From: Oscillospiraceae bacterium
GTDB taxonomy: Bacteria > Bacillota > Clostridia > UBA1381
NCBI GenBank assembly: GCA_022509025.1
Contig: JAFLUB010000006.1
Span: 1-64,000, forward strand
DNA: 64,000 bases
Reading direction: 5' to 3'
The translations under genes were made by a program, and so were the position numbers. Shown here piece after piece: positions 5,218 through 53,008 of this stretch. Each line of letters begins with the position of its first letter. Position 1 is the first letter of the stretch. The notes under the pieces were generated by a model. That model saw only the letters and a program-made list of their open reading frames with translations. It did not search any database and had not been told where the DNA came from.

Positions 5218-5239
5218 AGCAGGTGCCTACGCACCTGCT
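5218..5239. terminator. Hairpin between aroA and coiled-coil gene
   Basis: AGCAGGTGC / GCACCTGCT with a 4-nt loop, 13 nt past the aroA stop and overlapping the stop codon of the convergent gene. Preceded by an A-run and followed by CTCTTGCT, so its action as a terminator is plausible, mainly for the minus-strand gene. Confidence 0.55.
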
Positions 5240-5583
5240 CTTGCTCCCAGCATTTTCTTTATCATCTTTACATCAAATTCAAGAACTCCTACACGTTCCT
5301 CTATATCCTTCGCAATCATGACGTTTTTAGCTAAGTCAGTGTGATTTTCAAGCAACAGCTGAACCTTCGGGGCAATATCCGTTTCCACAAGATATGCAGT
5401 CTTTTTAAGTGAACTGATATCACCTTGCATAGTTTTGATATCACCTTGCATAGTTTTGATATCACCTTGCATAGTTCTGATATCACCTTGCATGGTATCC
5501 ATCCGGCTCTCCATACTGTCCATCCGATTTTCTATTCCGTCAATTTTAGCAACTAATAACTCAAGCAATTCTCTGTCTGTCAT
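5227..5583 (-). CDS. Small heptad-repeat coiled-coil protein, function unknown
   Basis: 118 residues with no signal peptide or membrane segment. Residues about 15-60 are near-perfect heptads (MDSMESRMDTMQGDI, then TMQGDIK repeated) that predict a long helix for coiled-coil oligomerisation. The C-terminal half (LLLENHTDLAKNV...VGVLEFDVKMIKKML) is also helical. The repeat is equally clear in DNA as a 21-bp tandem array. It has its own SigA promoter and GGTGG-type ribosome site. Similar short proteins are common in Clostridia, often annotated only as hypothetical. A scaffold or binding role is conceivable but not shown. Confidence 0.8.
   Translation of the reverse strand: MTDRELLELLVAKIDGIENRMDSMESRMDTMQGDIRTMQGDIKTMQGDIKTMQGDISSLKKTAYLVETDIAPKVQLLLENHTDLAKNVMIAKDIEERVGVLEFDVKMIKKMLGARAGA
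5415..5498. repeat. 21-bp tandem repeat, four units
   Basis: Unit tgatatcaccttgcatagtt plus one base, about four consecutive copies with one or two substitutions in the last. It is in frame (seven codons, TMQGDIK) inside the coiled-coil gene, so copy-number changes would lengthen or shorten the coil without a frameshift. Confidence 0.95.
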
Positions 5584-6623: not shown

Positions 6624-7091
6624 CTATTTAAGCAGTGCGATTGCCATTGCGGATATTCCTTCGCCTCTGCCCTCAAAGCCGAGTTTTTCAGTTGTTGTGG
6701 CTTTCACGCTTACTGCGTCTAATCCTATTCCCAAATCACCGGCAATGTTCTGACGCATTTCATTAATATACGGGGACATTTTCGGACGCTGAGCTATTAT
6801 AGTTAAATCTATATTCTCTACAGCATAACCTCTTTCAGATATTTTTCTTACCACTTCACGCAGAAGAACTCTGCTGTCCGCCCCCTTATAGCGTTCATCG
6901 GTATCCGGGAAGTGTGCGCCTATATCTCCCATAGCCGCCGCGCCCAGAAGCGCATCTGACAGCGCGTGCAATGCAACATCTGCATCGCTGTGTCCAAGCA
7001 ATCCCTTATCATACGGGATTTTTACTCCGCATATTATACAGTCCCGTCCCTCTACAAGCTTATGAACATCGTATCCTTGTCCTATTCTCAC
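6624..7091 (-). CDS. ispF: 2-C-methyl-D-erythritol 2,4-cyclodiphosphate synthase
   Basis: 155 residues. IspF cyclises CDP-methylerythritol phosphate in the non-mevalonate isoprenoid pathway. Metal ligands are visible in GQGYDVHKL and [17 protein letters not shown]; the C-terminal [20 protein letters not shown] is the CDP-binding signature. The ORF track runs 23 codons further upstream to an ATG, but GTG at 7091 with GGAGG 5 nt before it starts precisely at the conserved MRIGQGYD. It lies downstream of ispD, separated by repeat element A. Confidence 0.96.
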
Positions 7092-7176
7092 GATAATCCT
7101 CCATTCTATAATAAATCGAAACGTAGAAAAGGCAGGCAGCAAATTACATTTGCAGCTCACCCATGCGGTCAGGAAT

Positions 7177-7261
7177 CAACCAGGTTGCCCTTTTGAGGAA
7201 CGCCGACGTATGTTGATACGTGGAGTTCCGAAAAAGGGTAAGATGCGCCGCTTATTTTTCG
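7177..7261 (-). repeat. Repeat element A, copy 1 (ispD/ispF intergenic stem-loop)
   Basis: One of three similar copies in the window (others at 33361 and 52069). The core is a long hairpin: CCCTTTT-GA-GGAAC pairs with GTTCC-GA-AAAAGGG, with an inner ACGTAT/ATACGT helix closed by GTTG. It is followed on the plus strand by ggtaagatgcgccgctta. It lies between the ispD stop and ispF start, in the same orientation relative to transcription as the other copies, and its right edge touches the ispD stop codon. No protein is encoded. Confidence 0.85.
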
Positions 7262-7932
7262 CGTTTTTCAAGTATTTTTTCAGCTATAATTATATCGTCC
7301 GGCGTTGTTATCTTAATATTATCATAGCTGCCCTGGCTTATTCTTACTCTGACTCCGTAGTGTTCGGCAATCATACAGTCATCGGTCGCCTCAAAACCTT
7401 CGCATGCCGCTTTTTGGTGTAGCGCAAGAATTTTATCAAGATAAAACACCTGCGGTGTTTGTATAAGATACGTCAATTCACGGTCAACTGTGCCTGATAT
7501 AAATCCGTCCTTCGAGCTTTTTAACGTGTCCTTGCACTTTACTCCCACCGCCGCGGCTCCATACTTTACACAGTCAGCTATTGAAGCATCTATTTCAGCG
7601 CCGGTAACAAGCGCTCTTGCCCCGTCATGAATAAGCACTATATCACCTTGCGCGCACTTTAAACCGTTCATAACTGACTGCTGACGGCTTAAACCTCCAA
7701 CAGTAATATGTCTTACTTTCGTTATGCCGCAGTCCTTTATAATTCTTTCACATTCGCCCACATCACTTTCACCTGAAACAAGAACAATATCATCAATATT
7801 TTTGTTTCTCTCAAATGCTGCGAGCGTAAAATAAAGTATTTCTTTATCTTTTATTTTAAGCAGCAGCTTATTTTTATCCGCGCCCATACGCGTTCCCTTA
7901 CCGCCCGCAACAATAATTGCTGTGATTTTCAT
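7252..7932 (-). CDS. ispD: 2-C-methyl-D-erythritol 4-phosphate cytidylyltransferase
   Basis: 226 residues. IspD makes CDP-methylerythritol from methylerythritol phosphate and CTP. Motifs: IIVAGGKGTRMGADKNK (CTP-binding glycine-rich loop), QQSVMNGL, VLIHDGARALV, YLIQTPQVF and ATDDCMIAEHYG. The start at ATG 7932 (GGGAGG upstream) replaces the track's longer ORF, which would overlap carD. It sits 52 nt after carD, a frequent clostridial arrangement (carD-ispD-ispF). Its last codons (EKREK) lie in sequence shared with repeat element A copy 2. Confidence 0.96.
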   Translation of the reverse strand: MKITAIIVAGGKGTRMGADKNKLLLKIKDKEILYFTLAAFERNKNIDDIVLVSGESDVGECERIIKDCGITKVRHITVGGLSRQQSVMNGLKCAQGDIVLIHDGARALVTGAEIDASIADCVKYGAAAVGVKCKDTLKSSKDGFISGTVDRELTYLIQTPQVFYLDKILALHQKAACEGFEATDDCMIAEHYGVRVRISQGSYDNIKITTPDDIIIAEKILEKREK

Positions 7933-17956: not shown

Positions 17957-19132
17957 TTATTCTATTCCCGCCACGCCTGTTTCGCGTGCTGCTTTTGCTA
18001 CCGCTTTCGCCACATTTTCCGCCACGCGTTTATCAAACGCATCCGGTATTATGTATTCCTCGTTAAGTTCATCGTCACTGATTATTCCGGCGATTGCTTC
18101 CGCTGCTGCTATCTTCATTTCATCGTTGATATCACTTGCTCTCACATCAAGCGCGCCGCGGAAAATACCGGGAAACGCAAGCACGTTGTTAATCTGATTC
18201 GGGAAATCGCTTCTGCCTGTGCCGATTACTTTAACTCCCGCCTTTTTCGCTATGTCAGGCATGATTTCGGGCACGGGGTTCGCCATCGCAAACACAATAG
18301 GATTATCCGCCATTTTCTTAACCATTTCTTCCGTGAGAACACCCGGGGCCGATACACCTATGAAAAGGTCTGCTCCCTCAACCGCCTCCTGAAGCTTCAC
18401 ATCAAGATTTTCAGGATTGGTAAGCTCTGCCAGCTTTGCCTGTTCACTGTTCATCTCAGGATTACCTCTGTAAAGTGAACCGTATTTATCACACATAATA
18501 ACGTTTTTTAGACCTCTTGAAACAAGCAGTCTCGTTATTGCCATACCGGCTGAACCCGCGCCGTTTACTACTGCCTTGATTTTCGTTATGTCCTTATTAA
18601 CGACTTTAAGCGCGCTGAGCACAGACGCAAGCACAACAACCGCCGTTCCGTGCTGGTCGTCATGGAACACCGGAATGTCACATTCCTCTTTTAATCGTCT
18701 TTCAATCTCTATACAGCGCGGAGCTGAAATGTCCTCAAGGTTTATTCCGCCAAATGAACCTGCAATAAGCTTCACGGTGTTCACTATCTCGTCCACGTCC
18801 TTTGAACGCACGCATAATGGGAAAGCATCTACGTCCGCGAAAGTCTTAAACAGCGCGCATTTCCCCTCCATTACCGGCATACCCGCCTCAGGTCCTATAT
18901 CACCGAGTCCCAGCACCGCCGTTCCATCTGTTATAACTGCCACCAGATTTGAGCGGCGTGTATATTTATACGACAAATTGACGTCTTTTGATATTTCAAG
19001 GCACGGCTGGGCAACTCCGGGAGTGTATGCAACGGAAAGTTCTTCACGATTTGTCACAGACGCTCTTGAAACCACCTCTATCTTACCGCCCCATTCCTCA
19101 TGTTTTTTTAGCGCAAATTCTTTTTTATCCAT
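17957..19132 (-). CDS. NAD(P)-dependent malic enzyme (oxaloacetate-decarboxylating)
   Basis: 391 residues, the short bacterial form. It converts malate to pyruvate and CO2. Motifs: the N-terminal SVAYTPGVAQPCLEI catalytic Tyr region, VMEGKCALFK (catalytic Lys), GINLEDISAPRCIEIE (metal ligands), HDDQHGTAVV and the Rossmann GAGSAGMAITRLL. Coenzyme preference cannot be read reliably. The start ATG at 19132 has no GGAGG; the nearest purine-rich run is AGAAAGG in a short hairpin leader that matches the end of repeat element B. It has its own SigA promoter. Confidence 0.95.
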   Translation of the reverse strand: MDKKEFALKKHEEWGGKIEVVSRASVTNREELSVAYTPGVAQPCLEISKDVNLSYKYTRRSNLVAVITDGTAVLGLGDIGPEAGMPVMEGKCALFKTFADVDAFPLCVRSKDVDEIVNTVKLIAGSFGGINLEDISAPRCIEIERRLKEECDIPVFHDDQHGTAVVVLASVLSALKVVNKDITKIKAVVNGAGSAGMAITRLLVSRGLKNVIMCDKYGSLYRGNPEMNSEQAKLAELTNPENLDVKLQEAVEGADLFIGVSAPGVLTEEMVKKMADNPIVFAMANPVPEIMPDIAKKAGVKVIGTGRSDFPNQINNVLAFPGIFRGALDVRASDINDEMKIAAAEAIAGIISDDELNEEYIIPDAFDKRVAENVAKAVAKAARETGVAGIE

Positions 19133-19137
19133 AAAAA

Positions 19138-19168
19138 ATATCCATAGCCTTTCTGCCGCTATGCGGCA
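19138..19168 (-). repeat. Element B remnant in malic-enzyme leader
   Basis: On the minus strand, GGCAGAAAGGCTATGGATAT is identical to the 3' end of element B copies at 40736 and 52812. Here it is preceded not by the long helix but by a compact TGCCGC-ATA-GCGGCA hairpin. It ends 5 nt before the malic-enzyme start codon and supplies the only Shine-Dalgarno-like run. Confidence 0.7.
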
Positions 19169-19189
19169 TAATTATAAAATTCCAATTAT

Positions 19190-19218
19190 ATTTTACCATA
19201 AATCACGCATATCTTCAA
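19190..19218 (-). promoter_or_regulatory. SigA promoter of the malic enzyme gene
   Basis: Minus strand TTGAAG, 17-nt spacer, TAAAAT; the predicted leader of about 50 nt contains only the element-B remnant hairpin. Confidence 0.72.
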
Positions 19219-19360
19219 TACATTTTTCCCAAATGTTGTTATACAAAATAAACAAATTTCACTGTAAAAAATATACAACAAAGTTCTTTAAAACGCTTTT
19301 CTTTTTGTAAAAAATATTGTATAATATATATATGGAGTTATGAGAATATTAACATTACAT

Positions 19361-19526
19361 AATAATCACCATAACCTTTCTGTCCACAAACAGCAAGAAA
19401 AAATTTCTGACGAGCGTAATCATTGGCAGATAAGGCGTGAAATGGTGATTATGCCCATGTGCGTTTTCGAAGCCTGCGAGAAAAATCGTACGGGCAATTA
19501 AATGTAATAATGTGATTTATCACGTT
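19361..19526 (-). repeat. Repeat element B, copy 1 (antisense in ptsI leader)
   Basis: About 165 bp, clearly related to copies at 40736-40897 and 52812-52973. Shared blocks in plus-strand order are a ccataacctttctg end, ggcagataaggcg, gcccatgtgcg followed by cgaagc, acgggcaattaaat, and the palindrome-like tgtgatttatcacgtt. In minus orientation the outer helix is ATAATCACCAT with ATGGTGATTAT. It occupies most of the 423-nt gap between malic enzyme and ptsI, in the opposite direction to ptsI. The remainder of the gap holds the malic-enzyme promoter and a weak TATAAT box near 19320 for ptsI. Confidence 0.85.
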
Positions 19527-19555
19527 ATTCTCGTTCCGAAGGGAGGTTTTTAACT

Positions 19556-21317: not shown

Positions 21318-24300
21318 TTACTGTTCAAGCGATGCCCAGTCACGCACCTCGCCTATACCGGTCCATGTTTCATTTTCATCTTTATACTCCCAATAATGAG
21401 AATTTGTTGCTTCCTGGACTGCGATATAATACCATGCGTTTGTATTAAGGTTATCGCTCCATGTAATCATATCATCCGATAACGCTTCTATACCGGCAGG
21501 TATACGGTCGAGCACATTATTAACAAGCGTCATTGCCTCGGCGCGCGTTATAGGCTGAGTCGGTTTGAAAGTTCCGTCCTCATAGCCATGAATCCAGCCG
21601 CGTGCCGCCGCCCGGTTAATATATTCTTTTGCCCAGTGATCCCCGATATCTGTAAATTGATCCTCACCTTCATATGTGCCGCCGTCAAATCTCGCCGCAA
21701 TTGCCGCGAACTCTGCACGGGTTATTGACTTATTCGGATCGAAGCTACCGTCAAGATAACCGCTTACGATACCTGCATTGGACATAGTCGAAATAGCGTT
21801 ATTGTACCAATCTCCGTTATTCACGTCGCTGAAGCTATTGGATTGTCTCCAATATTTATTTCTTGAATCATCAGTCAGCAGACGGAAGAATATCGTTGCA
21901 ACCTCAGCGCGTGTTATCTGACCGTTAGGACGAACATCTCCTTCAGGATAACCGATAATATACGCGTAGTGGTCGTCATGGTTCAGGTCGGGTATATTAT
22001 TACCGTCCGACCTGTCTCCGTCAGATTTATCTCCATCAGGTTTATCACCATCTTTGCCTGTATACTTGTTTTCTATAATATATCCGGTTGCGCTCTTGAC
22101 GTAATTCGGAGTATATCCGTCAACAGGTTCCTCCGAAACCGTATAAGTGACAGTTTTACCGCCGGAGGTCTTTGCAAGGCCTGTGAATGTATATTTCCAG
22201 TTGTTTGATTTGTTCAGTTTATGCGTTGCTACAACCTTGTCTCCGTTCATAACGTTAACCGTTACGGAATCAGGACGCGCTTCTTCCGCGTCATCATCAC
22301 CTATCCACTGTTTTTCAACTTTTACGCTCGTTGTTGAGCTGCCGCCTCCGGAAGAATGCTTTTTATTTGTATCCTTTTCCCCCCATATTGCATAAAGCGT
22401 ATCATCTCCGTCAGGAATGTACTCATCCCCGGGCTGAATCAAATCTTTGCTGTTAGGATCAGCCTTAGGATTAGTAGACCAGCCTTTGAAATTATGATCC
22501 TTCAGAGTTGGATGAGTGTTTTGGATTATATCTCCCGTGCCCGGTACAATATCCTCCCAATTGTCCGGCATTACACCGTCAAATCCGTCTTTATCTGCAT
22601 CACTCGGAAGGTTTGGATCAAACTTCAGAGAATTCTTAGGTGTTGCGGTCGGTGTCGCCGTTGGCGTTGCAGTAGGTGTTGCCGTTGGTGTCGCTGTTGC
22701 TGTTGCAGTCGCTGCAGGTGTTGCTGTTGCAGTCGCTGCAGGTGTCGCTGTTGCAGTCGCTGCAGGTGTCGCTGTTGCAGTCGCTGCAGGTGTCGCTGTT
22801 GCAGTCGCTGCAGGTGTTGCTGTTGCAGTCGCTGCAGGTGTCGCTGTTGCAGTCGCTACAGGTGTTGCTGTTGCAGGAGCATATTCGTTTGAAAATGCTG
22901 CCGTTGCAGTCTTACCGCCTTCAATTTCACCTGAAGCGTTTGTCGGAGTTGACTTGTAATCAGGATTTTCCGTTTCCGTTACAGTATATTTCGTTCCGGC
23001 AGGAATCGCGCTGATTGACGCGCTTTCTCCGCCCTTTAATGTTACCTTTATACCATTCGTAGTGTCAACCTTATCCTTATCGTCCTGACTTATAATCAAC
23101 TTGCTTGTGTTGATATTGTTTTCATCCGCATCCTTCAGTGTTACTGTGAAAGTAAATTCAGCATTAGCAGGCGCATTATCACCTGTTACAGTCTTTGTGA
23201 TTTTCAGCGTACCCTCTTCATAGTCGGGAACATCATTCTCATTTTCATCAATCAGCCATACCGCGAACAAGGTTCTGCTCTTTTTGCCCATTGCGAGCTT
23301 GTAATCATCTAATTCCTCAGATGCGATAAAGTTATCATCATCTGAAAGTTCAGCGTAATCTTCAGCGGTTGCTATAACATTTACTATATCAGACGGAGCC
23401 ACAGGAATGTCTTCATCTTCATGCTCAACGACATACCAGCCGCCGAATACCGCTTTATCCTTTTTCATTGTACCGGGGCCTGAAACCGGAGCGTTGTAGG
23501 TCTCAACAAATATGTTACCCTTGCCGCTTTCACCGTTTCCTTCCATCTCTGCCGGCGCATTTGTACCGCCGTTAGCGTCATAGTCCTGAGTATGGAATAT
23601 AGTTATCGGTACATCATAGTATTCAGTCTTAGCATCATTGAGACCTTTTCCGAGAGGCACATATTTAACCTTAAATGTTGCAATGCCGTTATCTAAAATA
23701 CTATTTAAGTCAATCTGATATTGAATAGAGCCGACATAAGTGCCCGGTTGAGTTTTATCCTGCGTAGCTACTACATTCGGTGTAGCCTTCGGAGCCCACC
23801 AATCAGTGTTAATATCAGAATTGTCTGAATTTGTTGAATTGGGTTCATAATTAACCTCAATTATATTAGCCGCGTCATTCGGCATGATAACGCCGAGGTT
23901 GATAACAGCGGTATTTGTTTTGTCAGTTGCAGGTTTACCGACGATACCCTTTGTCTGAACTCTCGGTCCGGCATCCAGTATATAGTCTGTATATACCGGC
24001 ATATCACTGTCCATATATTCTGTTACTACATTGTAATCAGTGCCGTATTCTTTTCCACTAAAGCCGAACGGTGTATATGATGATACATTAGACGGTGAAT
24101 GGATATACTCGTCGTCATCATCTTTATAGTAATACTGCTCGATAATAACCTTGCCTACGCCGGTTGCGTTACTGAACGCGTCAGCCGCAACACTTTTCAT
24201 AGCCTTCGGTATTTTCAGTACTCCTGCCTGTTTAGTATCTCCTCCTACAGATATTTCAACTGTATCTTTCTGAGTGAACCCTCTGTTCGCGAAAGCCAGA

Positions 24301-26861
24301 CCCTCAATCACCTTTAAGCTGTCGGGGAATACAACATTGCCGATATTAAAGTTGTCACCTGAGTCGCAGCCGAAAGCACGGTAAGCGATTTCTTCAAGAC
24401 TCGTCGCTTCTTCAAAATTAACAGATTTGACATCTGCGCGGTAAAATACAGAGTCATTTATGCGTTCAATTTTGTCATGAAGAATAAGCTTATTTATTCC
24501 CTTCTCCTGACCGACAACTTTATCGCTGGAGCTTTCGGTATAGTAATGCCAGTTTGTGTTCCAATAGAACAACTCCATATTGTCGTCCTGCTGACCTACA
24601 CCGGTGATTTTAACTGTATGCGGTAAATGGGGCTCATCTTTTTCTGCCCATGTGAGAGTTTTGGGAATTTCAAGGTCAATTGTGTTTCCGATTGGTCCGT
24701 TATAGAACACAACATCGCCGGTGATACGGTTGAACCACCAATAGCTTTCATCAACATCTTCTGTTTCAGAATCATCAACAGCTTGAACTGTCAATGCATC
24801 CTCAATACCGTCCTTATAATGTATATCGGCATAGCCTGCGCTGAACGGATGAGATTCCTTATCTGATTCGTATATTGACTCGTCAGCATCTTCTACACCG
24901 TTAATACCTCCATAAGACTTACCTAACATATAAATATTTCTGAGTCTCGGGCAACGTGAGAATGCTCCGCTGTCAATATTGGCGATAGGCGAGTCTTCGT
25001 TATCTTCTTCATGTCCTGTTGCGTCAAATGTAACAGTCTCCAGACGTGTACACTGTCTGAACGCCCAGTAACCGATAGATTTAAGCTCCGGCGGAAGCGT
25101 TATCTCTGTCAGAGCCTGACACTGTCTGAACGCATTTTTATTTATAGAAGTAACTGTGGACGGTATATTTGTAACCGCCGTCAGGCGCTGACACTGCCAG
25201 AATGCGCCGTCAGGGATTTTAGTCATTCCGCTGTCCTCAAGATTGCTGAAATCAACTGAATACAATACCTGATTCATCGGACGGGAACCAAACGCTCCGT
25301 CTGCGATACCTGTGATTTTGATTTCTTCACCCTCGGTATTATAAACTGATTCGGGTATCGTTATAGAAACTCTTATGTCAGATTCCTTTGCTTTGTCACC
25401 CGATGTGCCATCTGCAAAATCAATATACTTATATCCCGGAGTCGGCGTTTCGCCCGGAGCGGAAGCATCTGAATCATCTATATAATACAGCTCCATCAGA
25501 TACAACAGAGCCTGACCGCTGCCTTGTTCAATTTTATTTTCACCTTGCTCGACGTAGTATTCTACTACTCTTGCTCCACCCTCGTCGGCTGCTTGAATAT
25601 CTACTCTTGTGTCATTAACTTTTATATATGTACCGACATCAGTGCCAAACACAAGAACGATAAAACCATTCTTGTCAGCATTAAAAGTTATAGGCTTCTT
25701 ACTTTCTATTTTTAAAGGACTGCCCTTATACTCTTTTTCCTTATAGGTAATAGTGGTATTAACAACTTCATCGGTTGTGTTTAAACTTCCGTTTGTTATT
25801 GAAAAAACATCATCACCTTCTACGCCCTTTTCGATAACATTATACACGGCGGCAGGGCTCGCTTCAGGGTCACGAGTCGGTTTTGGATCCTGCATGTACG
25901 CATAGTATCTGTAGTCATTTTTATCTGTCTTATAATCAAAATCTTCGGGATCCTTCGCGCCCTTATTGTATTCCTTAGCGGTTTTCAGACCGTAAATCAA
26001 ACCATCCGAGCCTACAACAAACGGAGAATCATTGTCATAGCCATGGGTTTTATCCCACAGAATAAATCCGTTAATAGCTCCCCACGGCGCGCCTGAAAGA
26101 GCGCTCGGAAGAGTCTTTCCGCAGTCTATAACGATATCAGTCTTACAGTTACGGAATGCGTTAACACCTATACTGTTCACACTTGCCGGAATTGATATAT
26201 AGCTAAGCGAGCTGTTTCCGTAAAATACGCTTTGACCAAGCTTTTCAACATTTGACGGAAGCGTAACATTCGTTAAATCGTCGCAGTCGCGGAAGCAGTC
26301 GTCAGGAAGTGACGTTATCGTCAAACTGCTTAAATCAACTTTTGTTAAACCTGAATTGTTTCCGCGGAAGCAGCCGGTGCCAAGCTCAGTGATTGACGAA
26401 GGCAGACCGCTTATTTCCGTGAAATAGTTTGATGCGAACGCTCTTGCGCCCATCTTTTTCAGCTGATATTCAGCATCCGAAACAAAGCTGATTGTGTTAA
26501 GCTCGCAGCCCGAAAACGCGTCAGGCGCGATTTCCACAACCGGATATTGTTTTCCGCTCTCGTCTACGAGATACGATGGGATTGTAATATCTCTTGGCGA
26601 GCCGTTTTCGCCCTGTACATAGTTGTATTGATCTATAACGGCTTCCGTGCCGTTCGCTTTAAGCGACGCGGCCATCCAGCCTACTATGTCATCGCTTCCG
26701 GCTTTACCGTTACTTGATGTAAATTTTACATCACCCGCGCGCGGTGTCGCGTTATTATCGACCGCCAGCGCGGATAACGGCAGAACAGCCGAAAGCATCA
26801 TACTCACACATAACACAAGTGAGAGTATTTTTTCAAAACTACTGTTTTTTCTTGTTTCCAT
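21318..26861 (-). CDS. Giant cell-surface protein: BspA-type LRRs, InlB-like, Cna-B and SLH domains
   Basis: 1847 residues. Signal peptide at about 1-35. BspA-type LRR_5 blocks, repeating LPSSITELGTGCFRGN-like units, lie at about 60-250, 490-640 and 760-900. InlB-like repeat segments (DYDANGGTNAPAEMEG...FGGWYV) are near 1080-1150 and again near 1420-1470. Cna-B domains at about 1190-1290 (LKITKTVTGDNAPANAEFTF) and 1500-1590 (VKVEKQWIGDDDAEEARPDS) flank an (ATPAATAT)n linker at about 1325-1410. Three SLH domains occupy about 1630-1830 (GQITRAEVATIFFRLL, KSITRAEFAAIAARF, QPITRAEAMTLVNNVL). It is likely an adhesin attached non-covalently to the cell wall. The start at 26861 follows AGGAGGAG. The leading 12 codons in the track lie outside the ribosome site. 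Confidence 0.9.
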   Translation of the reverse strand: METRKNSSFEKILSLVLCVSMMLSAVLPLSALAVDNNATPRAGDVKFTSSNGKAGSDDIVGWMAASLKANGTEAVIDQYNYVQGENGSPRDITIPSYLVDESGKQYPVVEIAPDAFSGCELNTISFVSDAEYQLKKMGARAFASNYFTEISGLPSSITELGTGCFRGNNSGLTKVDLSSLTITSLPDDCFRDCDDLTNVTLPSNVEKLGQSVFYGNSSLSYISIPASVNSIGVNAFRNCKTDIVIDCGKTLPSALSGAPWGAINGFILWDKTHGYDNDSPFVVGSDGLIYGLKTAKEYNKGAKDPEDFDYKTDKNDYRYYAYMQDPKPTRDPEASPAAVYNVIEKGVEGDDVFSITNGSLNTTDEVVNTTITYKEKEYKGSPLKIESKKPITFNADKNGFIVLVFGTDVGTYIKVNDTRVDIQAADEGGARVVEYYVEQGENKIEQGSGQALLYLMELYYIDDSDASAPGETPTPGYKYIDFADGTSGDKAKESDIRVSITIPESVYNTEGEEIKITGIADGAFGSRPMNQVLYSVDFSNLEDSGMTKIPDGAFWQCQRLTAVTNIPSTVTSINKNAFRQCQALTEITLPPELKSIGYWAFRQCTRLETVTFDATGHEEDNEDSPIANIDSGAFSRCPRLRNIYMLGKSYGGINGVEDADESIYESDKESHPFSAGYADIHYKDGIEDALTVQAVDDSETEDVDESYWWFNRITGDVVFYNGPIGNTIDLEIPKTLTWAEKDEPHLPHTVKITGVGQQDDNMELFYWNTNWHYYTESSSDKVVGQEKGINKLILHDKIERINDSVFYRADVKSVNFEEATSLEEIAYRAFGCDSGDNFNIGNVVFPDSLKVIEGLAFANRGFTQKDTVEISVGGDTKQAGVLKIPKAMKSVAADAFSNATGVGKVIIEQYYYKDDDDEYIHSPSNVSSYTPFGFSGKEYGTDYNVVTEYMDSDMPVYTDYILDAGPRVQTKGIVGKPATDKTNTAVINLGVIMPNDAANIIEVNYEPNSTNSDNSDINTDWWAPKATPNVVATQDKTQPGTYVGSIQYQIDLNSILDNGIATFKVKYVPLGKGLNDAKTEYYDVPITIFHTQDYDANGGTNAPAEMEGNGESGKGNIFVETYNAPVSGPGTMKKDKAVFGGWYVVEHEDEDIPVAPSDIVNVIATAEDYAELSDDDNFIASEELDDYKLAMGKKSRTLFAVWLIDENENDVPDYEEGTLKITKTVTGDNAPANAEFTFTVTLKDADENNINTSKLIISQDDKDKVDTTNGIKVTLKGGESASISAIPAGTKYTVTETENPDYKSTPTNASGEIEGGKTATAAFSNEYAPATATPVATATATPAATATATPAATATATPAATATATPAATATATPAATATATPAATATATATPTATPTATPTATPTATPKNSLKFDPNLPSDADKDGFDGVMPDNWEDIVPGTGDIIQNTHPTLKDHNFKGWSTNPKADPNSKDLIQPGDEYIPDGDDTLYAIWGEKDTNKKHSSGGGSSTTSVKVEKQWIGDDDAEEARPDSVTVNVMNGDKVVATHKLNKSNNWKYTFTGLAKTSGGKTVTYTVSEEPVDGYTPNYVKSATGYIIENKYTGKDGDKPDGDKSDGDRSDGNNIPDLNHDDHYAYIIGYPEGDVRPNGQITRAEVATIFFRLLTDDSRNKYWRQSNSFSDVNNGDWYNNAISTMSNAGIVSGYLDGSFDPNKSITRAEFAAIAARFDGGTYEGEDQFTDIGDHWAKEYINRAAARGWIHGYEDGTFKPTQPITRAEAMTLVNNVLDRIPAGIEALSDDMITWSDNLNTNAWYYIAVQEATNSHYWEYKDENETWTGIGEVRDWASLEQ
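22640..22880. repeat. 24-bp tandem repeat encoding ATPAATAT linker
   Basis: Units of ggtgtcgctgttgcagtcgc plus tgca, about eight to ten copies with c/t wobble changes, run in frame through the LRR/SLH gene and encode Ala-Thr-Pro-Ala-Ala-Thr-Ala-Thr. It is a flexible, possibly O-glycosylated linker and a likely length-variable locus. Confidence 0.95.
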
Positions 26862-26920
26862 AATAAGGTTACTCCTCCTTGATGTATAAATATTCATTAT
26901 ATATTTAAAACTAACTATAT

Positions 26921-32616: not shown

Positions 32617-33280
32617 GGTCAAGCCTCCTCTCCACTGCTTTCGATAGCTGTGACAGCAGCGTTATTACAACTAAATACATAACCGCCACAATCGCCCATG
32701 TCTGGAAGGATTTAAACGTGTTCGCCTGAACATTTTTCGCGGTATTAACAAGCTCCGGGAAACCTATAACCGACAAAATCGATGTATCCTTCAAAGTGAT
32801 TATAAATTGGTTTATGATACTGGGTATCATTATTTTAACAGCCTGCGGAAGTATAACGCGCTGCATTGCGCGCCAATACGGAAGTCCGAGACTTCTCGAA
32901 GCCTCCATCTGACCCTTGTCTACCGCCTGGATACCGCCGCGGATAATTTCCGCCATATACGCGCCGCAGTTCAGGGCAAGACATATCGTACCTGCCTGCA
33001 ACCCGGTAAGAACTATATTTTTTCCTATATGTAATATTGTGTTAAACAGATACGGAACTCCGAAAAATACGAAGAACGCAAGAACTATCATTGGAACACC
33101 GCGAATAACATTGACAAATATCGCCGATATCGCATTACATATTTTACTCTTGACTACGCTCAGTATTCCGAAAATCAAACCGAGAATACACGCGAAGAAC
33201 AATCCCCATAAAGCGAGAATAAGGGTTTGTCCCATTGCTTTAAGAAGCAGTGTTCCGTAATCGGTTATAATTTGAACCAT
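32600..33280 (-). CDS. glnP: Polar amino-acid ABC transporter permease
   Basis: 226 residues with about five membrane helices and the EAA loop [23 protein letters not shown] that contacts the ATPase. The N-terminal [19 protein letters not shown] is typical of the HisM/GlnP family. ATG at 33280 with GGAGG 6 nt upstream is chosen over the track's longer start. A small CCGCC/GGCGG hairpin and repeat element A copy 2 lie between this gene and the binding-protein gene. Confidence 0.95.
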
Positions 33281-33360
33281 CTTAATCCTCCATCCAACCG
33301 CCATTAGGCGGAACTAATTGTAATGCGACGTTTATTTTCGCATTTTGTAACGTGGAAAAG

Positions 33361-33450
33361 AAACAAGCAGATTCCCCTTTTGAGGGACGCTGACGTATGC
33401 TGATACTTCAAGTTCCGAAAAAGGGTGAGGTGCGCCGTTTATTTTTCGCG
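33361..33450 (-). repeat. Repeat element A, copy 2 (glnH/glnP intergenic)
   Basis: Same hairpin as copies 1 and 3: CCCCTTTTGAGGGAC pairs with GTTCCGAAAAAGGG, with ACGTAT / ATACTT inside. The GGAAC-to-GGGAC change keeps the helix by a G-U pair. A second short copy of its right edge (tgcgacgtttattttcgc) lies at 33324-33341, so the hairpin is flanked by imperfect direct repeats. Confidence 0.85.
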
Positions 33451-33471
33451 TTACCCCATTCCAAAATACGG

Positions 33472-39769: not shown

Positions 39770-40729
39770 CTATCTTATTAAAAGATACGCTGTAAAGCCA
39801 AGATACATGACTATCATAACGATTCCCGCTCCGCGATTTATTTTTTTATTAATCAGGGCAAATATATAGGTAACAGCCAAAACGCCTGTCAATATAAGCG
39901 CGTCGAAAACAGTGTTCATATCCGTATTAATATTGCTTATCGTAGATGAAATACCGAGTATAAACAGTACGTTGAAAACATTTGAGCCCATAACATTTCC
40001 CACGGCAATGTCATTCTGCTTTTTGCGCGCTGCGACGATTGACGTTACAAGCTCCGGAAGCGATGTTCCTATCGCGACAACGGTAAGCGCTACAACCTTC
40101 TCGCTCAGTCCCGCCTTCAGCGCAAGTTCCTGCGCGCCTTTAACGGTAAGCTCACCACCTATGATAACCCCCGCAACACCGGCAATGATGAATAAAATAC
40201 ATTTCCACATGGGCATTTTATTCTCTGCATCGTCTCCCGCGTCAGGTATACACGAAGCTTCGCGTTTGCCGGAAATAATTGAAACCGTCATAAACACCGC
40301 AAATATCAAAAGCAGCATGGCACCGTCAAATCTTGTCAGCGCAATCTGTCCGCCGTTCATGGTAAGAAGAAGCGCAAGCATTACAACCGTAATGGCGATA
40401 CAGAAAGGGAAATCACGCTTTAGAATATTTTTCTTTACTGCGACCGGTGCAAACAGCGCGCTTGCTCCCAAAACGACAAGCGTATTAAACATATTTGAGC
40501 CTATCACGTTTCCAATCGCTATTTCATTACTGCCCTGAAGAGACGCGGTCACGCTCACCGCCGCCTCAGGAAGACTTGTTCCTAACGCTACAACTGTAAG
40601 ACCCACAAGATATGCCGGAATTTTCAGCTTGTCCGACAAACCGCACGCACCGTCTACAAATACATCCGCGCCCTTGACAAGCAGAATAAATCCTCCTATA
40701 AGAAATATAATCATAAGTATTGTGTTCAT
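39770..40729 (-). CDS. CaCA-family cation/Na+ (or H+) exchanger, YrbG-like
   Basis: 319 residues, about ten helices in two inverted halves, each with an alpha-repeat: VALGTSLPEAAVSVTASLQGSNEIAIGNVIGSNMFN and VAIGTSLPELVTSIVAARKKQNDIAVGNVMGSNVFN. These bind the divalent cation. The Mn2+ riboswitch upstream and mntP downstream point to Mn2+ (or Ca2+/Mn2+) export. ATG at 40729 gives the normal N-terminus MNTILMIIFLIGGFILLVKGAD; the 55 extra codons in the track are leader sequence. There is no GGAGG: the start lies 16 nt beyond the AGAAAGG at the end of element B. Confidence 0.92.
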   Translation of the reverse strand: MNTILMIIFLIGGFILLVKGADVFVDGACGLSDKLKIPAYLVGLTVVALGTSLPEAAVSVTASLQGSNEIAIGNVIGSNMFNTLVVLGASALFAPVAVKKNILKRDFPFCIAITVVMLALLLTMNGGQIALTRFDGAMLLLIFAVFMTVSIISGKREASCIPDAGDDAENKMPMWKCILFIIAGVAGVIIGGELTVKGAQELALKAGLSEKVVALTVVAIGTSLPELVTSIVAARKKQNDIAVGNVMGSNVFNVLFILGISSTISNINTDMNTVFDALILTGVLAVTYIFALINKKINRGAGIVMIVMYLGFTAYLLIR

Positions 40730-40735
40730 TGTAAA

Positions 40736-40897
40736 ATATCCATAGCCTTTCTGCCCACAAATAGTAATGAAAAATATTAACATCCCTATCGTGGGCAGAT
40801 AAGGCGTTAAATGGATTTTGCCCATGTGCGTTTTTCGAAGCAACGCGAGAAAAAAATCGCACGGGCAATTAAATCCGATTAACGTGATTTTCACGTT
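40736..40897 (-). repeat. Repeat element B, copy 2 (leader of the cation exchanger)
   Basis: About 162 bp, closely similar to copy 3 at 52812. In transcript sense: an AACGTGAAAATCACGTT hairpin; a helix pairing GCCCGTGCGA with TCGCACATGGGC (one bulged base); then ATCCAT-n-GCCTT-n-CTGCCCAC pairing with GTGGGCAG-AAAGGC-ATGGAT. It ends 7 nt before the exchanger start. It lies between the riboswitch terminator and the gene, so it would be in the mRNA only when the riboswitch permits read-through. Confidence 0.87.
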
Positions 40898-40952
40898 AAC
40901 CCTCCTGTTTTTATTCTTCCAACGTCATAGAAGTAAAATTCATTCTATGTTT

Positions 40953-51482: not shown

Positions 51483-52046
51483 TTAATAGTAGCTTACCGA
51501 GGTTTCAATATTATACTCATGAGGTTCTTTTGTCACGCTGCTGTGTCCGACAGCAATTGCAATTGCGAACTCGTAATTTTCAGGGAATTTAAGCTCTTTT
51601 TCAAAATACGCTTTCTTTTCGCCTTTCATAGCTTTATCAATTATGCCTATTATCAGGCTGCCAAGTCCCATCGACTGTGCCGCCAAAGACATACTCTGAA
51701 CCGCTATTCCCGCGTCAACCTTATTCCAGTGAAAATCCTTATCAACGCTTAAAATAAACACTGTCGGCGCGCTGTAATAGAAGTTGTTCGGATTACTCTC
51801 TATTTTCGCCTTGGTTTCTTCGTCCGGCGCATCAGCAAGCATAATCATCTTGCGCTCAGTGTCAATTTCCTTCAGTATTGGTGCGTCGCCGTCCACTACG
51901 GTGATATGCACTTCCTGCATATTGCGCGCAGTCGGCGATTGCAAAGCCGCATTTATAAGCGCGTCTATTTCATCCTTTTTGAGCTTTTCATCTGTATATC
52001 CTCTCGTGGAGCTTCTTTTTGCAATCGTTTCTAATACCTCATTCAT
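51483..52046 (-). CDS. Nitroreductase-family FMN protein
   Basis: 187 residues. The N-terminal ETIAKRSSTRGYTDEKLKKDEIDALINAALQSPTARNMQ is the FMN-phosphate-binding and dimerisation signature; GIAVQSMSLAAQSMGLGSLIIG and EFAIAIAVGHSS complete the fold. These enzymes reduce nitro compounds, quinones or flavins with NAD(P)H. ATG at 52046 with AGGAGG is chosen over the longer track ORF. It lies downstream of apt with element A copy 3 between them, so it may be read from the apt promoter. Its natural substrate is unknown. Confidence 0.92.
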   Translation of the reverse strand: MNEVLETIAKRSSTRGYTDEKLKKDEIDALINAALQSPTARNMQEVHITVVDGDAPILKEIDTERKMIMLADAPDEETKAKIESNPNNFYYSAPTVFILSVDKDFHWNKVDAGIAVQSMSLAAQSMGLGSLIIGIIDKAMKGEKKAYFEKELKFPENYEFAIAIAVGHSSVTKEPHEYNIETSVSYY

Positions 52047-52068
52047 AGCTTTCCTCCTATATTTTATG

Positions 52069-52188
52069 GTAAGTTGCACCGCTTATTCGTAACGGAAACA
52101 AGAAGCAAGCAGGTTGCCTTTTTGAGGAACGCAGTCGTATGTTGATACGTGTGATTCCGAAAAAGGGTAAGATGCGCCGCTTACTGTG
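52069..52188 (-). repeat. Repeat element A, copy 3 (apt/nitroreductase intergenic)
   Basis: Stem-loop core at about 52111-52168, as in copies 1 and 2, including the inner CGTAT-gttg-ATACG helix. The two edges carry imperfect direct repeats, ggtaagttgcaccgctta (52068-52085) and ggtaagatgcgccgctta (52166-52183). It is the best copy for defining the ends of the element. Confidence 0.86.
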
Positions 52189-52253
52189 CAACAGCAAGGT
52201 TCCGGGGTACCCGCCCGCAATTTTTGATTGCGCCGACGGGTCGGCTTCTTATT

Positions 52254-52289
52254 GTTTTCGTTAGTTTTCGTTAGTTTTCGTTAGTTTTC
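52254..52289. repeat. 10-bp tandem repeat at the apt stop codon
   Basis: gttttcgtta occurs three times in a row plus a fourth partial unit. The apt TAA stop is inside the array (minus-strand unit GAAAACTAAC), so the array reaches from the last codons of apt into the 3' UTR. Just beyond lies a CGCAAT/ATTGCG hairpin (52216-52232). Confidence 0.9.
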
Positions 52290-52805
52290 ATGGAATTGCA
52301 ATGCCGACCGTACCTCATATCCTTCTAAAACATCTCTTCCCTTAAGGTCAATAAGCTCTACAAGGAATAAAAGACCGGCAACGCTTCCGCCGAGCTGCTC
52401 GATTAGCTCCGCAGATGCTTTTATCGTTCCGCCTGTCGCGATTAAGTCGTCAACAAGCAGCACCTTATCCCCTTTATTAATAGCGTCCTTGTGCATCTCT
52501 ATTTCAGCCGTTCCGTATTCAAGAGAATACTCCTTTGATACAGTTTCACGCGGCAGCTTGCCTTTTTTCCTTATCAGGACAAAGCCCTTACCCAAAGCGT
52601 ACGCAAGCGGCATTCCAAGAAGAAATCCTCTTGATTCAGTTCCTGCTATAACGTCAAAATCCAAATCAGACGATAATTCAATCAGCGTGTCTATCGCTAA
52701 CTTCAATCCTTCCTTATCCTGCAATACAGAGGTAATATCCCGGAATATAATTCCCGGTTCCGGAAAATCCGGTATGTTTGTTACGTAATCTGCCAAGTTT
52801 TTCAT
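52281..52805 (-). CDS. apt: Adenine phosphoribosyltransferase
   Basis: 174 residues. Apt salvages adenine to AMP with PRPP. The PRPP-binding loop VLLVDDLIATGGTIKASAELI and the family motifs FPEPGIIFRDITSVLQD, AGTESRGFLLGMPLAY and FVLIRKKGKLP are intact. ATG at 52805 is at the expected N-terminus (MKNLADYVTNIPDFP). It lacks a GGAGG site; the closest is AGAAAGG, 16 nt away at the end of element B copy 3. A SigA promoter lies upstream of that element, so the apt mRNA carries the full element as its leader. Confidence 0.95.
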   Translation of the reverse strand: MKNLADYVTNIPDFPEPGIIFRDITSVLQDKEGLKLAIDTLIELSSDLDFDVIAGTESRGFLLGMPLAYALGKGFVLIRKKGKLPRETVSKEYSLEYGTAEIEMHKDAINKGDKVLLVDDLIATGGTIKASAELIEQLGGSVAGLLFLVELIDLKGRDVLEGYEVRSALQFHEN

Positions 52806-52811
52806 AATATA

Positions 52812-52973
52812 ATATCCATAGCCTTTCTGCCCACAAGTAGTAATGAAAATCTAACGTCCCTATCGCGGGCAGATAAGGCGTTAAATGGATATTATGCCCA
52901 TGTGCGATTTTCGAAGCAACTCAAGAAAATACTCGCACGGGCAATTAAATCCGACAACGTGATTTATCACGTT
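52812..52973 (-). repeat. Repeat element B, copy 3 (leader of apt)
   Basis: About 162 bp. In transcript sense: AACGTGATAAATCACGTT hairpin; GCCCGTGCGA pairing with TCGCACATGGGC (one bulged base); then ATATCCAT, GCCTT and CTGCCC pairing in order with GGGCAG, AAGGC and ATGGATAT. It ends 6 nt before the apt ATG. This is the reference copy, since it is in sense orientation downstream of a recognisable promoter. The 332-nt gap here holds only this element, the apt promoter and the symporter terminator. Confidence 0.87.
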
Positions 52974-53008
52974 AGCCCTTTCATCTCTTTATGTGTACCG
53001 TTTTCTCT

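Follow-up and report, generated by a model that had tools for sequence, protein, structure and literature searches.

What is a hairpin repeat doing between the genes of several operons, always in the same orientation relative to transcription? The question is raised by element A, an intergenic stem-loop in a 64,000-nt stretch of contig JAFLUB010000006.1 (the window, to which all coordinates refer) from the genome of an Oscillospiraceae bacterium (G000), for which a first-pass annotation had proposed either an intercistronic RNA signal, like repetitive extragenic palindromic (REP) elements, or a non-autonomous mobile element. We conclude, with a probability of roughly 0.7, that a small non-autonomous mobile unit has element A as its structured core, and that this unit inserts between the Shine-Dalgarno sequence (SD) and start codon of a gene, supplying a replacement SD of its own. 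All genomes compared are draft assemblies with genes called by a simple codon-usage method, and copy numbers depend on the threshold applied.

The sites that element A occupies are empty in relatives. At ispD/ispF the element is missing from 15 of 15 congeners, nine further sites of the same genome are empty in the congeners inspected, and three sites in a second genus (G021) are empty in other genomes. Judged by this comparison, in which every site was empty in relatives, element A is mobile, as the second of the two earlier proposals had it. The filled and empty sequences also give the boundaries of the unit: in G021, TTTACAACTAAGGTGAAC[unit]AATATG corresponds to the empty TTTACAATTAAGGTGATATTATG (L218) and AATAGGAGGAGTA[unit]AAAATGGCAAAGCA to AGTAAGGAGAAAAGCAAAATGGCAAAGCA (L215), and in the own genome TAAGGAGATA[unit]..GGAATGGAGAGAAAATGG corresponds to TTAAGGAGAAAAAATGG (L084, L085). 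The hairpins lie where the first-pass annotation had placed them, but the mobile unit reaches beyond them to the SD of the downstream gene, comprising in mRNA sense a hairpin (5' TAACGTG.. or AGTTTGG.., 3' ..CACGTTA or ..CCAAAC) and a tail of 25-45 nt that bears an SD such as GGCGGCATGGAGGATT or GGCATTGGTGAAAGGAGTTCGGAATATA. Filled G021 sites run from the native SD (AAGGTGAAC, AGGAGGAGTA) through the hairpin and a conserved tail with another SD to three bases and the start codon, placing an SD on both sides of young copies, while the corresponding empty sites pass directly from SD and spacer to start codon. The same arrangements are found at L045, L043 and L020 of the own genome, and the insertion at ispD/ispF added 28 nt with GGAGG alongside the hairpin.

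The position of the unit relative to the gene start is nearly constant. Relatives carry two subtypes of terminal stem, T1 (TAACGTG/CACGTTA) and T2 (GTTTGGG/CCAAAC), with identical internal loops, and tails vary with genome and subtype (GATTTGTGCCGC-loop-GCGGCGGAATGGAGATT in the own genome, GGATTTGAGCCGCCTAAAGGCGGCATGGAGGATT in G021, GGCATTGGTGAAAGGAGTTCGGAATATA in T2); tails of differing sequence nevertheless stop 2-3 nt before the start codon. Among T2 tails that reach a gene start, 28 of 32 end exactly 3 nt before ATG by manual reading of the list (a script tally takes the TTG of the next unit into account as well). Upstream, an SD-like stretch lies within 14 nt of the unit in 17 of 19 cases in G021 and in 50 of 108 units overall, as against 100 of 756 control windows. 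Nearly all tail-bearing copies carry CATNNN, which selection for a start codon could also yield, and many unit boundaries have TA, several young copies lacking it at the upstream boundary (GAAC, TGAA, GTGA). Mini units that lack the hairpin core (AGTTTGGAAAAAGATAAGC-ACC-GCTTCTCTTTTCCCAAAC plus SD tail) were observed in one genome of the family (G027: L152, L158, L161, L163), where they stand in tandem arrays with full units, sometimes with no gene start nearby.

The three copies reported by the first-pass annotation hold for the window; genome-wide there are tens. The core has 46 BLAST matches in the own 2.49-Mb draft genome, and a covariance model built on 24 complete copies finds up to 84 matches there, up to 98 in G027, 44 in G021 and 12-27 in several other genera, a few of which may be weak hits on the opposite strand of one and the same copy. 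Within 95 genomes of the order, the element occurs in 44 of 70 from its own family and in none of 25 from other families, and contigs with similar neighbor genes come from gut Clostridia, including rabbit-gut and 'Oscillospiraceae' assemblies. No curated Rfam covariance model matched except for a single hit at chance level (E 0.57) that lies beyond the hairpin, phage and plasmid sequences gave no BLAST match, and an exact pattern search of the species collection returned nothing. Two 18-mer matches in viral contigs proved on checking not to be element A, and a small open reading frame (ORF) within the unit was rejected on inspection, the frame being interrupted by stops in most copies.

The orientation seen in the window extends to the whole family. 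Among 51 own-genome matches, 39 have two co-directional neighbors, and in every one of these the mRNA contains the minus strand of A, never the plus strand; in the four divergent cases the element again belongs to the 5' leader of whichever gene would carry the minus strand, and one (L030) of two apparently convergent cases has a gene start directly after the tail. Relatives agree in 51 of 52 co-directional cases. Replication alone is unlikely to have produced such a bias, as there is hardly any case of the opposite gene orientation.

The consensus fold is a single continuous hairpin of 109 nt with three tiers and two tandem G.A internal loops, where only two tiers had previously been described. 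From the outside inward, the outer stem is followed by an AA/GCC loop and a GCA/TGC stem; then come the first tandem G.A loop, a stem of ten pairs, the second tandem G.A loop, a stem of five pairs and the apical stem-loop. Both partners change in 36 alignment cells, which is strong covariation against 11.2 such cells in shuffles and no more than 13 in controls with slid partners, and the plus strands of the window copies fold more strongly than their dinucleotide shuffles (z -3.7, -2.7 and -3.1). The alifold consensus energy is -28.0 kcal/mol on the strand antisense to the genes and -8.9 kcal/mol on the mRNA strand. In relatives, G.U pairs on the plus strand outnumber those on the minus strand by 193 to 23 cells in related rows, and by 127 to 23, again in rows that are not independent, once consensus-wobble columns are removed. 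Conserved wobbles, tandem G.A and energy support, rather than prove, that the strand with the favored fold is the one antisense to the mRNA.

This strand preference bears on the first of the earlier proposals, that element A is a conserved cis-regulatory or mRNA-processing RNA of the REP/BIME, ERIC or attenuator type, selected for a role in operon expression. A single transcribed orientation between operon genes would suit such a role, and long mRNA hairpins, for example those of ERIC and Correia elements, are described in passages of one review as typical substrates of RNase III or RNase E (PMC2229807). However, the sites are lineage-specific and empty in relatives, the neighboring genes are functionally unrelated, and the better-conserved fold lies on the antisense strand. 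What survives of the proposed intercistronic signal are the co-directional gaps, the fixed orientation and the covarying hairpin, while we consider a REP-like function in mRNA processing or stability improbable; the position of element A near genes would follow from insertion beside start codons together with a replacement SD.

We propose that the unit enters the spacer that separates the native SD of a gene from its start codon, leaving 2-3 nt ahead of the latter and always taking one orientation, and that this native SD would remain upstream and decay as that of the unit takes over, with further units added later to yield tandem arrays. The tail SD would serve translation, so that the gene survives. 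The oriented target N3-ATG (CAT-N3 on the structured strand) may be recognized directly and not through the selection of survivors, and transposition may proceed, as it does for IS200/IS605, through a hairpin intermediate of single-stranded DNA. The more specific proposal, that transposition is directed to start sites by a recombinase or HUH-type enzyme that inserts the folded strand 3 nt upstream in one orientation, the element surviving in essential operons by replacing the ribosome-binding site (RBS), we advance tentatively and rate somewhat below even odds.

Two routes could lead to the orientation, recognition of an oriented motif and selection for a usable SD, and the former is favored because hairpin-only copies are oriented as well and because the distance to the start stays constant with two different tails. 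Under selection, insertion would be untargeted, perhaps at TA, and the copies now seen would be those that left the downstream gene translatable; TA is indeed found at many boundaries, SD cargo would permit one viable orientation between SD and ATG, and tail-less hairpin copies do occur elsewhere in leaders. Yet insertions into 3' regions or ahead of the SD ought to be tolerated no less well, while 17 of 19 young G021 copies lie between SD and start, two different tails keep the same distance of 2-3 nt, and hairpin-only copies share the orientation, leaving untargeted insertion a serious contender that we nevertheless regard as rather doubtful.

Some observations weigh against a unit that inserts between SD and start with its own SD. 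An upstream SD is present in just 12 of 49 own-genome copies (control about 10%), consistent with insertions of greater age or with copies of another class. At L014 (pyk) and L028 (DUF1385-like) a tail-less hairpin lies, in the usual orientation, upstream of an intact native SD, and since such hairpins are oriented alike, SD replacement alone fails to explain orientation. Moreover, the strand preference of G.U pairs is not significant in the own genome without the consensus-wobble columns (27 vs. 16, p 0.13), although it reaches significance among relatives, whose rows are not independent, and selection on SD spacing could mimic targeting.

The copies in the window illustrate how the unit is arranged. 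A direct-repeat family (D3; 7173-7265, 33360-33452 and 52102-52194, with 83-86% identity to the reference copy) and covariance-model matches at 33347-33455 (E 4e-23, 116.6 bits), 7160-7268 (9e-17) and 52098-52187 (7e-15) agree with the first-pass annotation on three copies in one shared orientation, well beyond chance. The flanking genes that it had named (ispD/ispF, glnH/glnP and apt/nitroreductase) are likewise matched by Pfam domains (IspD/IspF, SBP_bac_3/BPD_transp_1 and Pribosyltran/Nitroreductase). All three copies, with their tails and associated features, are given on the minus strand. Copy 1 has a hairpin of the long-arm (L) variant at 7120-7265 (core 7173-7265, extra arm 7120-7172), whose mRNA-5' end overlaps the last ispD codons and the stop and which terminates just past ispD; its tail, GATTTATTATAGAATGGAGGATT followed by ATC (7092-7119), holds the SD GGAGG at 7098-7102 and precedes the ispF start codon GTG (7089-7091). 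This tail is missing from congeners, where the ispF start overlaps the ispD stop or comes close to doing so. The extra arm of about 45 nt (GGCTGGTCGCAAATTGCATTTGCTGCTCGCCCATGCAACCGGGAA), which at copy 1 sits within the left arm of A at 7120-7172, occurs in about one third of own-genome copies (L003, L012, L015, L026, L030, L039, L040, L043-L047).

Copy 2, in the gap between the genes for the solute-binding protein and the permease, is a full short (S) hairpin of 109 nt (33347-33455, from the covariance model). Its tail (33284-33347) comprises a second-copy remnant, a small hairpin CCGCC..GGCGG and the SD GGATGGAGGATT, after which come AAG and the start codon ATG (33278-33280). Comparison with congeners identifies a decayed native SD, GGAATGGGG, upstream at 33454-33462 (L020); congeners have GAAAGGAGATAAAAGA-GTG and no element at this site (L097, L098).

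Copy 3, between the phosphoribosyltransferase and nitroreductase genes, had been taken as a single copy at 52069-52188 but is composite. Sequence, repeat family and covariance model together place the main part of its hairpin at 52090-52183; the sequence and copy alignment reveal another repeat, B, nested in its right arm at CTTAT (52184-52253), and alignment with uninterrupted copies puts the right terminus, CTTATTGTTTTCGTTA, past this insertion at 52249-52264. Downstream in mRNA sense (52053-52089) lie a remnant of a tandem second copy (52068-52089) and the SD AGGAGG (52053-52058), followed by the nitroreductase start codon ATG at 52044-52046. Repeat B (TTATTGTGAAACAACAAGGTTCCGGGGTNCCCGCNCGCAATT..AATTGCG..GCGGGTCGGGTTCTTAT) is hairpin-forming and apparently a second mobile repeat. 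Besides 52184-52253 it is present at L004, L026, L038, L043 and L046, nesting in element A at CTTAT (L026, L038, L046) or in the apical loop (L004, L043), with five tandem copies at L038 and tandem repeats upstream of truB.

Which enzyme might mobilize element A? Among the transposase families tested (IS630, Y1 and IS110, other families lying outside the search) and reverse transcriptases, no consistent enzyme tracks the element, and no copy was found that encloses a gene. A classical miniature inverted-repeat transposable element (MITE) mobilized by IS630 with TA target duplication, as for RUP, Correia or ERIC, would account for the palindromic outer arms and for TA at many ends, but the IS630 domain DDE_3 (PF13358) is found in 0 of the 21 genomes tested (completeness 90% or more in 12), an SD tail extends the unit beyond the palindrome, which means that terminal inverted repeats do not bound it, and several young copies have no TA at the upstream boundary; we consider this origin highly improbable. 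A single-strand HUH element of the IS200/IS605 or REP type, served in trans by a Y1 transposase, would fit the structured strand, the lack of duplication and an oriented insertion that keeps CATNNN to the left of the structured strand, much as IS200/IS605 elements insert 3' to a short motif, TTAC in the case of IS608 (PMC5934647). Y1 proteins are also present in the own genome. However, Y1 (PF01797), the TnpA-REP-type partner whose search the first-pass annotation had suggested, does not track the element: it is absent from G027 (98% complete, with up to 98 matches) and from G026, G029, G006 and G012, it is present in element-free congeners, and no hairpin copy lies near the four Y1 genes checked, which makes such a partner unlikely. 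IS110 was rejected as a mobilizer on account of its patchy occurrence across genomes, and so was reverse transcriptase, which is present in G021, G024, G027 and G029 and in neither G000 nor G026. These four unit-rich genomes belong to different genera, and their reverse transcriptases are of retron-like size, about 305-325 aa (G021:C40:8731-9285, G024:C5:51283-51825, G027:C122:24852-25454, G029:C24:9549-10148).

The window holds further repeats. Long leader repeats (D4, D6, D7, D9) at 19127-19527, 40725-40898 and 52801-52974 stand directly upstream of three minus-strand genes; they share the ending TATCACGTTA with element A, their RBS region GGCAGAAAGGCTATGGATATT resembles its tail, and they are perhaps a related larger element. 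An array of 12-bp repeats (22612-22918) lies within an ORF of 1859 aa (21318-26897), and at least four 21-bp tandem repeats (TGATATCACCTTGCATAGTTT; 5415-5517) lie within a small ORF at 5227-5583.

Several known systems resemble element A in part. REP, BIME and REPIN sequences with RAYT (Y1) transposases likewise have a structured hairpin, high copy number, clusters and covarying stems, but element A keeps a single orientation to genes and a start-codon location, ends in TAACGTG/AGTTTGG on a hairpin of 109 nt instead of a GTAG-type terminal tetranucleotide on a short one, and does not co-occur with RAYT/Y1 as a consistent partner. Similarly, in the IS200/IS605 elements IS608 and ISDra2 a left-flank motif on the structured strand orients insertion, no target is duplicated and the palindrome is imperfect and confined to one strand; element A differs in having no transposase gene or demonstrated partner, its motif would consist of CAT and three free bases, and with co-directional genes its structured strand would differ from the lagging-strand template. 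In integron attC sites it is the template strand of the neighboring genes that folds, the site follows stop codons and the orientation is fixed. Element A shares these features and was compared with attC for its template-strand fold and TAAC..GTTA ends, but attC was ruled out: element A is dispersed between ancestral operon partners, with no cassette arrays and no core-site boxes (RYYYAAC/GTTRRRY) visible.

We found no description of an SD-carrying repeat located between SD and start in the full-text literature, a search that left out most subscription papers and so is weak evidence of novelty, and the passages on MITEs in two reviews mention no SD-carrying repeat (PMC2229807, PMC10969869). 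If insertion is indeed directed to start codons, bacterial transposition would gain a new kind of target specificity, and the unit would offer a natural tool with which to place sequence just before genes. With the SD carried as part of the unit, many RBSs in these gut bacteria would also be of mobile-element origin, and the annotation of operon leaders should change. The bacterial MITEs (RUP, Correia/NEMIS, ERIC, BOX), as portrayed in those passages, are similarly short, dispersed, intergenic, non-coding foldback sequences that are co-transcribed with genes and nested with other repeats. Element A has no IS630 relative in the genomes tested, however, and one end of the unit, except in a minority of hairpin-only copies, lies 25-45 nt outside the palindrome, in an SD tail with a fixed SD-to-start position and a strict orientation. 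Insertions between RBS and start codon would mostly silence genes, and the way round this for the element A family would be to carry the disrupted signal as cargo.
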